Assembly (NCBI GenBank): GCA_025062325.1
Contig: JANXAL010000073.1
Coordinates: 1 to 37,169 of the forward strand
Length of the DNA: 37,169 bases
Source: Roseiflexus sp.
GTDB taxonomy: Bacteria; Chloroflexota; Chloroflexia; Chloroflexales; Roseiflexaceae
Reading direction: 5' to 3'
Within the stretch, counting starts at the first letter, position 1, and each line of letters begins with the position of its first letter. The notes under the pieces are model-generated. The model saw nothing but the letters and a program-made list of their open reading frames with translations. It was not told the origin of the DNA and made no database searches. The position numbers and the translations under genes were made by a program. Below are positions 8,764-31,058 of the stretch, piece after piece.

Positions 8764-9277
8764 TTGATCCCTGCATCCCCCTTCTCCCACAAAGGGAGAG
8801 GGGGATTCACGAGTGGAGAGTTGTGCAGGCACGATGGACATTTGTCGTGTCCTGACGACTTCTTTCCTCATCCCCATCTCTCAGATGTAGGCTTTTTAGG
8901 GTGTGAAGCAGGTTTGCCACATCCTGACGCCCTTGTTCCCCTTCGTCCTCCCTACCCCCTTCCTCTCAAGTGTAGGCTTTTTGGCGTGCGAAGCGGATTT
9001 GCCGCATCCTGACGCCCTTTCCCCCTCATCCCCCCAACCCCCTTCTCCCCTTGTGGGAGAAGGGGGAGTCAGGGCGTCCTGATGCCCGAAGCAGACAGTC
9101 AGCACGAGGGGATTGCCAGAAAAATCTACCCTTGTGAGCTACCTCCTTCTCCCACCCTCACAAGTGTAGCGTTTTTGGGGTGCGATGAATGTCCTCCGCA
9201 TACGGGCTTGCCGAAAAATCTACCTTTGTGAGCGTCCCCCCATTCCCTGCTCAAGTGTAGCGTTTTCTGGCAAGCCC
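8764..9277. repeat. Array of palindromic MITE-like elements (block A)
   Basis: The 3'-intergenic block between the flavoprotein and rsmA. Direct ends (CTCxCAAGTGTAGxxTTTTTGG) occur at 8879-8898, 8963-8983, 9157-9178 and 9249-9277; inverted ends at 9111-9139 and 9204-9233. A near-complete element spans 8963-9139, with the central 12-bp hairpin CCCCCTTCTCCC (9038-9049) / GGGAGAAGGGGG (9055-9066). A short, internally deleted copy spans 9157-9233. No transposase is present. The last partial copy runs into the coding end of rsmA. Confidence 0.8.
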
Positions 9278-11948: not shown

Positions 11949-12039
11949 GACGTGCTACTCCGCGATCGTGTCGTGAGGCGTTCACTCGATCCAAGGTATG
12001 ATGTCTGAACGCCTGATTGCTCCCATCCCCCTGCTTCCA

Positions 12040-12345
12040 CACAGAGCTGTTCTAGGGCGCCGCGGAGGTTTGCCGCGTCCCAATACCTGTATTGCTCTCA
12101 TCTCCCGGCTCCCCTCCTCGCAAGTGTAGATTTTTTGGAGGATATGAAGGTTGGCTGCGTCCTGATGCGGTTGTTGTCCTCATCCCCCGCAAGCGCAGGC
12201 TTTTAGCGTGCAAAGCAGGTTTGCCGCGTCCTGCCGCCCTTTTCCCCCTCATCCTCCCGCCCCCCTTCTCCCACACGGGGAGAAGGGGGGTTGCGCATCC
12301 TGACGCCCAAAGCGGCGCTACCTGTCCTCCAACCCTCACGCGACC
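12040..12345. repeat. Array of palindromic MITE-like elements (block B)
   Basis: Direct ends at 12117-12138 and about 12186-12208 are followed by the same polypyrimidine run and a perfect central hairpin, CCCCCTTCTCCC (12261-12272) / GGGAGAAGGGGG (12278-12289). The right half stops after CGCATCCTGACGCCC and lacks the inverted end, so this block is made of truncated copies. It fills most of the gap between the kinase gene start and the mdh stop. Confidence 0.75.
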
Positions 12346-12378
12346 GTCGTCCTGCCCCCGATGCGTCCTGCTGCTACG

Positions 12379-15126: not shown

Positions 15127-15296
15127 TGCACTTATCGCTTTCTGAGAAACGGTTAGGATTAGGAAGCGTCAGAACTTCCGCCTTCAGCCTTCATGCCTCT
15201 CGCCGAGCGCCTCTATCCTTGCGCTGTGCACTTCAGCACTGCAATCACACTCGTGGTGTTTTCCGCACAAAGCCTCTGACCTTGCGCCTTGAACAG

Positions 15297-26451: not shown

Positions 26452-26500
26452 GGCGAGAGGCAAGAGCGGCGAGGGGCGAGAGGCAAGAGGCGAGAGAGCT

Positions 26501-26530
26501 GCAGATAGGAAGGTTGCAGATAGGAAGGTT
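26501..26530. repeat. Tandem 15-bp duplication
   Basis: GCAGATAGGAAGGTT occurs twice head to tail (26501-26515, 26516-26530) just after purine-rich GAGGCGAGAGGCAAGAG low-complexity DNA (26452-26500). No coding role is seen. Confidence 0.7.
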
Positions 26531-26699
26531 GCAGGTTGAACGAAGGTTCGGTGAGGTCTCAGAACGTGATCTGGAGGCTTTTGGAGCATTATTCCTCTGG
26601 AATGAATGAATCGCGCGAGCGGCGTGCAAGCCAGCCTTAAGGTCTACGCCATTGCACGTGTGGCGCATATGTAAGAGTGTCCTCTGCTCTCAAGGGCGG

Positions 26700-27250
26700 A
26701 GTAGGTGCGAGGGTCGTTTTCGGCGTCCTGACGCCTGTTTTCCCTTCATCTCCCCGCTCACAAGCGTAGCGTTTTTGGAGTGCAATCGATGTTCTCCGCG
26801 CCCTGACGCTCTTTTCCCCTCATCCCCCCTACCCCCTTCTCCCTCTCAAGTGTAGGCTTTTTGGGGGCCAAAGCAGGTTTGCCGCATCCTGACGCTCTTT
26901 TCCCCTCATCCCCCCGACCCCCTTCTCCCACAAGGGGAGAAGGGGGAGTTGGGGCGTCCTGTCGCCTGAAACGGGCAATGCAATGTGAGGGCTTGCCAAA
27001 AAACCTACACTTGTGAGCTGCTCCCACCCCCCTGCGCCCCCCGCATGCGGGGGTTGGGGGGAGAAGGGGGAGTTTACGCATCCTGACGCTCAAAACGGGC
27101 GATGCAACGGAAGGGCTTGCCCAAAAAATCTACCCTCGTGAGCCTGCGCTCCCCGCGTGCGGGGTGGAGAATAGGGAGCTGGGGCGTCCTGTTGCTTGAA
27201 ACGGGCGATGGAATGGAAGGGCTTGTTGAAAAAATCTACACTTGTGAGGT
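26700..27250. repeat. Array of palindromic MITE-like elements (block C)
   Basis: Fills most of the gap after the permease. Direct ends at about 26755-26780 and 26843-26865; inverted ends at 26988-27018, 27111-27143 and 27217-27249. A near-complete 176-bp element spans 26843-27018 with central hairpin CCCCCTTCTCCC (26918-26929) / GGGAGAAGGGGG (26935-26946). The following copies are half elements in the same inverted orientation, which suggests repeated unequal exchange or nested insertion. Confidence 0.8.
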
Positions 27251-27899: not shown

Positions 27900-28019
27900 A
27901 CTGAACATTGTATCAGATTGTGGTAGACTTTCGTGGTGAAAGGCGAGAGGCGAGAGGCGAAAGGGGCTGATAAAAGGGGACTTTTCCAACACGCCCTCGT
28001 GCTGCATCGCCTGTTTGAG

Positions 28020-28400
28020 GCATTAGGACGCCCCACCTCTCCCTTCTCCTCTTCTCGCAAGCGTAGAGTTTTTAGCAAGCCCTTATGCTGCATCGCCCGT
28101 TTGGAGCATTGGAAAGCGCACACTCCCCCTTCTCCCACACGTAAACGCTGGCATTGCGCCGGTGTGGAAAGAGAGTTGGAAAGCACACACTCCCCCTTCT
28201 CCTACAAGGGAAAAGGGGGAAGAGGAATGAGAGGGAAAAAGGGCGTCAGGACGCGACAAACATCCATCGCACCTCAAAAACGCTACACTTGAGAGCTTCT
28301 CCCCTTTGGTGGAAAGGGGCGGGGGGATGAGGGGAACAAGGGCGTCGAGATGCGGCAAACCCGCTTCGCACCCTAAAAGCCTCCACTTGAGAGGGCGAAA
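28020..28400. repeat. Array of palindromic MITE-like elements (block D)
   Basis: A direct end at 28053-28083 (CTCGCAAGCGTAGAGTTTTTAGCAAGCCC) and inverted ends at about 28270-28296 and 28367-28395, with an imperfect central hairpin near 28190-28215. The element is more diverged than those in blocks A and C. Confidence 0.7.
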
Positions 28401-28548: not shown

Positions 28549-28681
28549 CATTCGCTGATTCGCTGAAGCACTCGCTTATTCGCCAACGCATTCTCTTATT
28601 CGCCGACACATTCGCTTATTCGTTGACGCGTTCGTTGACCCATTCGTTGATTCGCTGACCACATTCGCTTATTCGCCGACA
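28549..28681. repeat. 20-bp tandem repeat (minisatellite) before the patatin gene
   Basis: Units of CATTCGCTTATTCGCCGACA run in strict 20-base register at 28549, 28569, 28589 and 28609, then a shortened unit at 28629, another at 28641 and a perfect one at 28662-28681. Unit differences are scattered. The array ends 22 bases before the patatin ATG, so it lies in the leader or promoter. Two degenerate units also occur at 21440-21479. Confidence 0.8.
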
Positions 28682-28703: not shown

Positions 28704-31058
28704 ATGACTCACGACGGCGATCCAATCTACACCGACGCCGACTTCATCAGAGATGATCTGCAGCGCTGCGACCTGGTGATGAAAGGCGGCATCGCCAGCG
28801 GCGTGGTGTACCCGCCAGCAATTATCGAACTTGCGACGCGCTATCAGTTCGTCAACATCGGCGGCACGTCAGCGGGCGCGATTGCGGCTGCTGCTGCGGC
28901 GGCGGCAGAATACGGGCGCACCATCCCATACGCTGGCTACCGTAGCGGTTTTCAGCGACTCGACCGGCTGCGCGCTTGGCTCGGCGCGAATGAAGGCAAT
29001 TTGGCAGGATTGTTCCAGCCGTCCCCCAACCTGAAGCCGTTATTCCACACGCTGCTCGATCTGGTGATCGCCTCAAAAACGGCGCTGCCGCCAAAACGCG
29101 CGTCTGCACGTCAACAATTGCCATCTGCGGTTCGCATTCCTGTTGCAGCGCTCCAGTTCGTCGGACGCGCACTTTCTCTCTTCCTCCGCACCGCCCGATT
29201 GCTGATGCGGTACAACACAGCGGTGACACTGGGGGTCGGAGTTGCAGCGGCGCTGATTATTGCAGCGATCTGGACCCTCCTGTCCCTCCTGAGCGACACC
29301 CCGGTGCAACCGTTGATCAGTGTCGGGCGAGTGGCGCTGTCGATTCTGGTCGGTCTGATCATCGGCGTGCTGGCGGGCGCAGTGCATCTTGTGTGGATTG
29401 CTGTCGCGGAACTGCCACGCAGTCTGTTTGGATTGTGCAGCGGTCATGCAGCAGGCGCAATCCCAGAGGGATGGCCGCCGACTCTAGGAGATACTGAAGG
29501 GCGCGGCAGGCCGCCTGCGCTGACTGACTGGCTCCATGCGGCGATCAATGGGCTAGCGGGGCGCGCTGCGGATCAACCGCCGCTCACGTTCGGCGAACTG
29601 GCGCATACGCCGGATGGTCGCAGGATTTCACTCCGCATGATGACCAGCAATCTGAGCGAACATATGCCATATGTGCTACCCAAAGACATGGGGCGCTTCC
29701 TCTTTGATCCGACCGAATTCGCGCGCCTGTTTCCGGAGATTGTCGTCGAACACATGCGCGCGCGCAGCGCAGGCGCAGCATATCAGGTGAAGGACGAACG
29801 CGGCGTAGTGCGAACACTGCTCCCTCTACCCGCCTGGCGCGATCTCCCTGTGGTCTTTGGTGTGCGTCTGAGCCTGAGCTTTCCAATTCTGATTGCCGCT
29901 GTCCCGCTCTACACGATCAGCGTCGCCGGGCAACGCGACGCGAGCGCCGGACGAACGCTGCGCGCAGAGCATCTTCAGCGCCATCTGTTCAGTGATGGCG
30001 GGATTGCCAGCAATTTTCCAATCCACTTTTTCGACCGCTGGTTGCCGACCCACCCGACCTTTGGCATCAATCTGGTGCAACTGTCCGCCGACGAGATCGA
30101 CGATGAGCAGTTCCTTCAGACGTTGCTGGCGGATGATGGAACGGAAACGTCAGCCGAGGCGCCGAAGCCCGGCGTGATCGTCAAACAGGCATATCTGGGG
30201 CGCGCCAACTTTCGCGCCGCGGCGCCTGAGCCGCCTCCGCCTTTCCGCGCCGCAGCGCCGTTCAGCAATCCGCAAGAGGAAGTCTATCTGCCGCCGGCTG
30301 GACCGAGCGAAGATTACATCGAGTGGAGGGCGATTACCAGTCTCCCGGCGTTCTTCTGGTCGATCTTCGGCACGGCGCAGAACTACCGCGATGCAGCCCA
30401 GGCGCGGCTGCCGGGGTACAACGAGCGGGTGGTGCGGGTGCGGTTGCGACCGGAAGAAGGCGGCCTCAACCTGCGTATGCCGCCCCGCATTGTCGCCGCG
30501 ATCATGCGCAAAGGGCGGCTTGCCGGGCGCGCATTGCTGCCGCAGGAACCCGAGGCGGCTGGCAGGAGACGCGGCGGCTTCCGTTTTGACGATCATCGCT
30601 GGGTGCGCCTGGTGACGCTTCTCTCGGAGATCGATCAGCAACTCCGCGACATGCGCGCTGCCTACGATGATGTTCAGGCGGACTATCCGTCGTTTTTGCG
30701 CGACGCGCTGACGAACGACAAGCTGCCGGTTTGCCCGCCGTATTACCTCGGCAACCCCGAAGAACGGGCGCTCTTTGCGCGACGCATCGAGGCGCTGATT
30801 GCGCTCTATACGCTGTGGAGCGATCTCGATGAGGCGACAACCGCGCGCCTCAATACGATCCTGTTGCGCATGAACAAACGGACGCTCCAGGACCTGGCGC
30901 GCCTGCTCGATCAACCCGATGACCAGGAGGCGTTGAGCGGCCTGCAGCACTGGCTCAGCGCCATGCACGCCGAGAAGGTGCGTGCTGCAAAAGCGGCAGA
31001 ACGCGAGCCATCGCCAGTCGAAGATATGATGGACCTGCGGGTGATGCCGACGATTTGA
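28704..31058 (+). CDS. Patatin-like phospholipase with internal membrane hairpin
   Basis: 784 residues. Patatin-type acyl hydrolase: oxyanion loop GGIASGVVYPPA (28-39), nucleophile elbow GGTSAGAI with Ser56 (GxSxG), and catalytic Asp431 in FSDGGIASNFP. Unlike plain patatins, about 240 residues sit between the elbow and the rest, including two strong membrane segments (about 172-197 and 207-236). The Asp comes some 375 residues after the Ser. The C-terminal 270 residues are soluble, helical and unrecognised. It is therefore expected to act on lipids from a membrane-bound position. AAGGGGCG precedes the ATG. It is convergent with the RNase H gene. Biological role unknown; I see no defence-system partners. 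Confidence 0.88.
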   Translation: MTHDGDPIYTDADFIRDDLQRCDLVMKGGIASGVVYPPAIIELATRYQFVNIGGTSAGAIAAAAAAAAEYGRTIPYAGYRSGFQRLDRLRAWLGANEGNLAGLFQPSPNLKPLFHTLLDLVIASKTALPPKRASARQQLPSAVRIPVAALQFVGRALSLFLRTARLLMRYNTAVTLGVGVAAALIIAAIWTLLSLLSDTPVQPLISVGRVALSILVGLIIGVLAGAVHLVWIAVAELPRSLFGLCSGHAAGAIPEGWPPTLGDTEGRGRPPALTDWLHAAINGLAGRAADQPPLTFGELAHTPDGRRISLRMMTSNLSEHMPYVLPKDMGRFLFDPTEFARLFPEIVVEHMRARSAGAAYQVKDERGVVRTLLPLPAWRDLPVVFGVRLSLSFPILIAAVPLYTISVAGQRDASAGRTLRAEHLQRHLFSDGGIASNFPIHFFDRWLPTHPTFGINLVQLSADEIDDEQFLQTLLADDGTETSAEAPKPGVIVKQAYLGRANFRAAAPEPPPPFRAAAPFSNPQEEVYLPPAGPSEDYIEWRAITSLPAFFWSIFGTAQNYRDAAQARLPGYNERVVRVRLRPEEGGLNLRMPPRIVAAIMRKGRLAGRALLPQEPEAAGRRRGGFRFDDHRWVRLVTLLSEIDQQLRDMRAAYDDVQADYPSFLRDALTNDKLPVCPPYYLGNPEERALFARRIEALIALYTLWSDLDEATTARLNTILLRMNKRTLQDLARLLDQPDDQEALSGLQHWLSAMHAEKVRAAKAAEREPSPVEDMMDLRVMPTI

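Follow-up and report, generated by a model that had tools for sequence, protein, structure and literature searches.

IS-derived MITEs such as MITEAba12, Nezha and NEMIS are short and non-coding, share their ends with a full insertion sequence (IS), are flanked by target duplications and occur in high copy number at polymorphic sites. Among the IS themselves, members of the IS4 family (IS231, IS4, IS10 and others; PMC2266710) have a single ORF with a characteristic DDE spacing and a Y(2)R(3)E(6)K motif; Table 1 of that 2008 paper gives terminal bases CT and 9-bp duplications for IS10, CAT and 10–12 bp for IS231, and -AATR and 10–13 bp for IS4. Another group of IS (IS1397, ISKpn1, IS621, ISPpu9/10, ISRm22) enters repeated extragenic palindromes (REPs) at a fixed position, and for ISRm22, which belongs to the IS4 family, 9 of 9 copies lie in REPs (PMC1525189). 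GTAG-tagged palindromes have been reported for Chloroflexi (PMC3733652).

Here we analyse a palindromic repeat in a 37,169-nucleotide stretch of Roseiflexus sp. DNA (contig JANXAL010000073.1 of assembly GCA_025062325.1; hereafter the window). We conclude that this 176-bp repeat is very probably a MITE with the ends of a 1.36-kb IS4-family IS, moved in trans and nesting in its own copies.

Results

Anatomy of the element in the window

The full copy that starts at 8963 opens with CTCTCAAGTGTAGGCTTTTTGG and closes with the inverted form of this motif at 9138 (Table 1). The initial annotation had extended it to 9139, with a length of about 177 bp; its start stands, but the true length is 176 bp, as the right target duplication already begins with base 9139, outside the element. 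The second copy, previously given as 26843–27018 and 176 bp, is real but was measured as one base shorter. A description of the whole element as an imperfect palindrome holds for the outer ~22 bp at each end and for the 12-bp stem of the central hairpin, but not for the stretches between, which are weakly palindromic by self-alignment of the consensus. The hairpin spans 29 bases, is perfect in both full copies and recurs at 12261–12289, just as first noted. The earlier estimate of about 16 ends in four blocks agrees with our count of 16 (8878–9269, 12117–12207, 26757–27248 and 28054–28393); a 17th match to the end pattern, at 15244, is spurious. Copy lengths are mostly 174–178 bp with a mode of 176 bp and are not multiples of three, as in a short non-coding unit of uniform length. 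The window had been said to contain no transposase, and none was found among the 18 main ORFs, a subset of all ORFs, that were scanned with Pfam, where the matches were to ordinary household families or absent.

Table 1. Element copies, fragments and target duplications in the window
Position	Strand	Feature	Remark
8878–8962	+	Left half of an older copy	Split by the 8963 element
8952–8962		Left target-site duplication CTACCCCCTTC	Within hairpin arm of the older copy; 10/11 identical to 9139–9149
8963–9138	+	Complete 176-bp MITE	Inverted ends 8963–8984 and 9117–9138
9038–9066		Central hairpin CCCCCTTCTCCC-cttgt-GGGAGAAGGGGG	Apex inverted relative to most copies
9139–9149		Right target-site duplication CTACCTCCTTC	
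9157–9232	+	Short element, 76 bp	Internally deleted; two inverted ends
9248–9269	+	Single element end, alone	
11975–12362		Block of element fragments	Interval 41–75 bp in G003, G004 and G005; without element ends in G001 and G002
12117–12138	+	Element end, fragment	
12186–12315	+	Element fragment	Left half plus hairpin 12261–12289
26757–26842	+	Left half of an older copy	Abuts the next element
26843–27017	+	Complete MITE, 175 bp	Flanks match at 5/11 only; duplication not clear
26918–26946		Central hairpin of the second full copy	
27056–27142	−	Right half unit	Inverted end 27121–27142
27162–27248	−	Right half unit	Inverted end 27227–27248
28054–28295		Element of 242 bp with inverted ends	Target duplication CTTCTCCTCTT / CTTCTCCCCTT, 10/11
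28307–28393	−	Half unit	Inverted end 28372–28393

Several features accompany these copies. About 5 of 58 aligned copies carry an inverted hairpin apex (CCCCTTGTGGG rather than the usual CCCACAAGGGG), for example at 9038–9066 in the window, L143:12848 and L202:11292, as if the apex had flipped between its inverted arms. A variant with an extended hairpin (CTCCCACCCCCCTGCGCCCCCCGCATGCGGGGGTTGGGGGGAG) is found at 27018–27072 and at several other loci, such as to the right of L143:6668 and L196:7606. Purine-rich short repeats (GGCGAGAGGCAAGAG, GGAAGGTTGCAGATA) adjoin the MITE blocks at 26452–26534 and 27932–27967, and degenerate tandem repeats of ~20 bp (CATTCGCTTATTCGCCGAC) occupy 28549–28680, a short way upstream of the gene for a patatin-like phospholipase at 28704.

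Abundance and spread

With up to two mismatches allowed, the end motif matches 503 times (261 + 242) in the 4.73-Mb draft genome that contains the window (G000), compared with no match for the reversed pattern, which bears out the family as a real one. The five sister species have 135, 45, 27, 22 and 6 matches, which shows a large amplification in the G000 lineage, and the motif is present in 16 of the 34 genera of Chloroflexales. Among the sister species, G001 is represented by a complete genome, presumably that of Roseiflexus sp. RS-1. Statistics were drawn from 1.107 Mb of G000, taken piecewise and partly chosen for containing copies (189 of the 503 ends), so that per-genome rates are rough: profile matches cover 3.5% of the bases in the 1.10 Mb sampled, and a rough estimate for G000 is ~190 full copies. 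The open-access literature on Roseiflexus or Chloroflexi MITEs yielded no description of this family.

Target duplications and polymorphic sites

Flanks of 11 bp are at least 80% identical in 41% of 71 full end pairs, versus 2.6% when the right flanks are shuffled, and the other flank lengths tested in the range 3–16 bp give 0–9%. Duplications identical at 11/11 positions include GGCAACATCCC, GAAGGGGGCAG and ATGCGGGGGTT. The lack of a good duplication in 59% of end pairs would fit age and nesting. Between species, G001 and G002 share one ancestral site (L035/L038) with the duplication ATCGCCGCTTC, and for an insertion in G004 the uninterrupted site is present in G003. The fragment block beginning at 11975 in the window is likewise replaced by a short interval in three relatives and free of element ends in two (Table 1). 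These comparisons indicate that the MITE transposed in the past and that its sites are polymorphic between species.

The duplications also bear on an origin as palindromes of the REP/BIME type, which a RAYT (Y1 tyrosine transposase) would have spread. Such palindromes would likewise be intergenic, occur in high copy number and form half-unit arrays; one Y1_Tnp gene is present in G000, and the GTAG-tagged palindromes known from Chloroflexi can be counted for the same reading. However, clean 11-bp target duplications are not a RAYT product, and the sole Y1_Tnp gene has another palindrome (GCCAGGGGCTTTAGCCCCTGGC) at its flanks, not the MITE ends. Moreover, the MITE unit measures 176 bp and its inverted ends are long, compared with a REP palindrome of 20–40 bp carrying a GTAG/CGTC tag at its foot, and the GTAG of the MITE lies inside the 22-bp end, not at the hairpin foot. 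We consider spread by a RAYT extremely improbable. The RAYT-like Y1_Tnp gene of locus L031 (G000 C75:31057–34395, at ~1492–1920), which is flanked by copies of the palindrome TAGCCAGGGGCTTTAGCCCCTGGC, represents, together with that palindrome, a REP-type system of its own within G000.

Site polymorphism is equally relevant to the idea that the elements are kept for a function of their RNA or DNA structure, as a terminator, small RNA, or nucleoid or gyrase site. The hairpin is strong, the consensus DNA folds better than its shuffles (z = −5.1), and hairpin and C-rich core are the best-conserved part of the element (0.89 versus 0.74–0.78 for the arms). Yet the stems carry no compensatory changes (88.4% of cells paired versus 88.3% in shuffles), the element sites are empty in relatives, Rfam returned no match for the element, no T run follows the hairpin, and a terminator scan gave terminator-like sites near chance. 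The initial annotation had regarded an RNA role as likelier if sites were fixed in all relatives and the RNA structure conserved; instead, sites vary and the arms lack compensatory change, which argues against that role, and we regard a structural function as improbable. The conserved core may equally be the outcome of mechanism or recent spread; its recognition as a target, pairing of the ends by the transposase and gene conversion are further candidates. The elements may have a local side effect on neighbouring genes.

An IS4-family insertion sequence with the same ends

Inverted end pairs 1.3–1.4 kb apart flank an IS4-family transposase gene, whose product matches PF01609 above its cut-off and NCBIfam IS4_2 with E-values down to 4e-28; the best score with the NCBIfam IS4 model, 98.5 bits, is below the curated cut-off of 152. 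The 1.36-kb copy in G000 (contig C83, L107:2119–3480) has the ends CTCTCAGGTGTAGGGTTTTTGC / CTCTCAGGTGTAGGTTTTTTTG, which are identical to the MITE ends at 17–19 of 22 positions (19/22 for the left end), and lies inside an older MITE, flanked by a perfect 11-bp duplication, CATCCCCCCTC. Its transposase, 51–53% identical to the query, is frameshifted, and this copy is a fossil. A second, degenerate copy is located on contig C41 of G000, relatives of the IS in G001, G002 and G005 are also decayed, and none of the six genus genomes, one complete and five drafts, yielded an intact cognate transposase. Since only broken transposases were found in the genus, activity has presumably ceased or become rare.

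In Oscillochloris (L114), Chloroploca (L115) and Viridilinea (L116), the frame is complete and encodes the DDE residues and the Y(2)R(3)E(6)K motif; intact IS of the first two genera are bordered by ends of this kind, one of which was also seen in Viridilinea. In the L114 transposase, D117, D180 and E284 fit D(60–110)D(100–150)E, and Y277, R280, E284 and K291 fit Y(2)R(3)E(6)K, while the L057 and L118 copies each miss one catalytic residue. More distant relatives in Calothrix (L218) and Armatimonadota (L219, L221) end in a similar way (CT...GTAGGTTT) and are flanked by perfect duplications of 11 bp. A duplication of this length was thus seen at L107, L218, L219 and L221; several other IS copies are without a clear one. 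The ends of the L057 IS (G022) match, but no duplication flanks it, and the L114 IS (G008) has inverted, not direct, flanking repeats, so neither was counted as evidence for 11 bp. In an Oscillochloris draft genome (L057:644–1189), the IS interrupts a gene whose start resembles an HTH and protein-kinase protein. A sequence search of solved structures gave no match.

The resemblance between MITE and IS is confined to the ~22-bp ends and a subterminal motif of weak similarity; their interiors are unlike, which gives no support to an origin of the MITE as a simple internal deletion of this IS. Judged by its ends and duplication, the IS4-family IS is well identified as the putative cognate partner.

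Nested insertion and mosaic halves

For the 27 insertions whose duplication matches at 9 or more of 11 positions, the pre-insertion flanks were rebuilt and compared with the MITE consensus. By a strict spanning rule the rebuilt target is an older MITE in 17 of 27 cases (binomial P about 8e-10), compared with 49 of 400 random non-coding positions (12%; the coding mask is crude); the 22 of 27 obtained with a looser rule than this control (P about 4e-16) are to be read with that difference in mind. All nested insertions with a mappable position fall at consensus 69–96, that is, in the C-rich arm and hairpin. The MITE family is thus its own preferred target. Newer copies cut older ones, which explains half units and arrays such as 8878–8962 beside 8963.

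Pairwise identities of the left and right arms are uncorrelated (r = 0.06), as against 0.48 and 0.37 within the arms, each of which is consistent in itself; halves have thus been exchanged between copies. The conserved core is the likely crossover point for this exchange, by a route that would be recombination.

A second insertion sequence at the hairpin apex

G001 contains eight copies of another IS4-family element (1380–1444 bp, ends TTGAAAGGGGGGGGATT, transposase identity 32–37%), the reading frames of which are open. All eight sit exactly at the apex of a MITE hairpin, with an 11-bp duplication of CCCCGTGTGGG, CCCACACGGGG or a near form, and the apex is the only landing site of this element in G001. 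Being intact, multicopy and also associated with 11-bp duplications, this clade might itself be thought to mobilise the MITE. Its ends, however, are unrelated to the MITE ends, which makes the MITE its target and not its relative, and we consider mobilisation by this clade highly improbable. A more tentative idea, to which we give somewhat less than even weight, is that the hairpin is a true landing pad: IS4-family transposases would recognise its palindrome as their target, and this would keep it well conserved. If so, the family would breed its own safe insertion sites and feed a second, independent IS that depends wholly on the hairpin.

Discussion

Our results support the MITE reading of the initial annotation through shared ends, 11-bp target duplications at full copies, the presence in the same genome of a transposase with these ends, albeit in a broken 1.36-kb IS4-family IS, and relatives in which the 11975–12362 block is missing or devoid of element ends. 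Three findings go beyond it: the half units arise by nested self-insertion, halves are mosaic, and a second IS lands in the hairpin. Taken together, the sequences argue that these repeats are a true MITE family and that its partner is an IS4-family IS.

For the MITE with its IS4-family partner, we propose the following multistep mechanism, in which (i) the non-coding MITE carries the IS ends (CTCTCAAGTGTAG..TTTTTGG); (ii) an IS4-type transposase acting in trans would cut the MITE at these ends and join it to a staggered break, giving rise to 11-bp direct repeats; (iii) the transposase would prefer C-rich or hairpin DNA, the richest supply of which is the centre of older MITE copies; (iv) new copies would split old ones, leaving arrays of ~86-bp half units; and (v) the repeated C-rich and hairpin segments would let adjacent halves recombine into mosaic elements. 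Apparent at the sequence level are the ends, the 11-bp duplications and, within G000 itself, a cognate IS whose duplication is equally long; so are the biased choice of targets, the mosaic make-up of the halves and the presence or absence of elements between species. From these observations we infer both the mobilisation in trans by an IS4-type transposase and the recombination route to mosaics.

According to this mechanism, an abundant palindromic repeat of Roseiflexus and its relatives would be tied to a specific transposase family and duplication length, and nested insertion would account for the puzzling half-unit arrays. The system would represent a clean natural case of transposons that carry and multiply their own target site, and the apex insertions, eight out of eight, open the way to a direct test of how an IS4-family transposase recognises its target.

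For every single trait there is a precedent; their combination was not found described in the open-access literature searched. The Roseiflexus element has the traits of IS-derived MITEs listed above, but differs from MITEAba12, Nezha and NEMIS in having an IS4-family partner with 11-bp duplications, in the use of its hairpin as the main target for new copies and in the shuffling of halves between copies. The partner resembles the IS4 family in its DDE spacing, Y(2)R(3)E(6)K motif and single ORF, and its 11-bp target duplication, about one helix turn, is also as in that family. In contrast, its CT start and 11 bp together fit no subgroup row in Table 1 of PMC2266710, and the partner and its relatives in Calothrix and Armatimonadota possibly form an IS4 subgroup that this table does not list. 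Like the REP-targeting IS, the apex element always inserts at one and the same point of a repeated extragenic palindrome. Unlike in those systems, the palindrome is here the centre of a MITE, the cognate IS of that MITE belongs to the same transposase family as the invader, and the duplication spans the hairpin apex in all eight copies.
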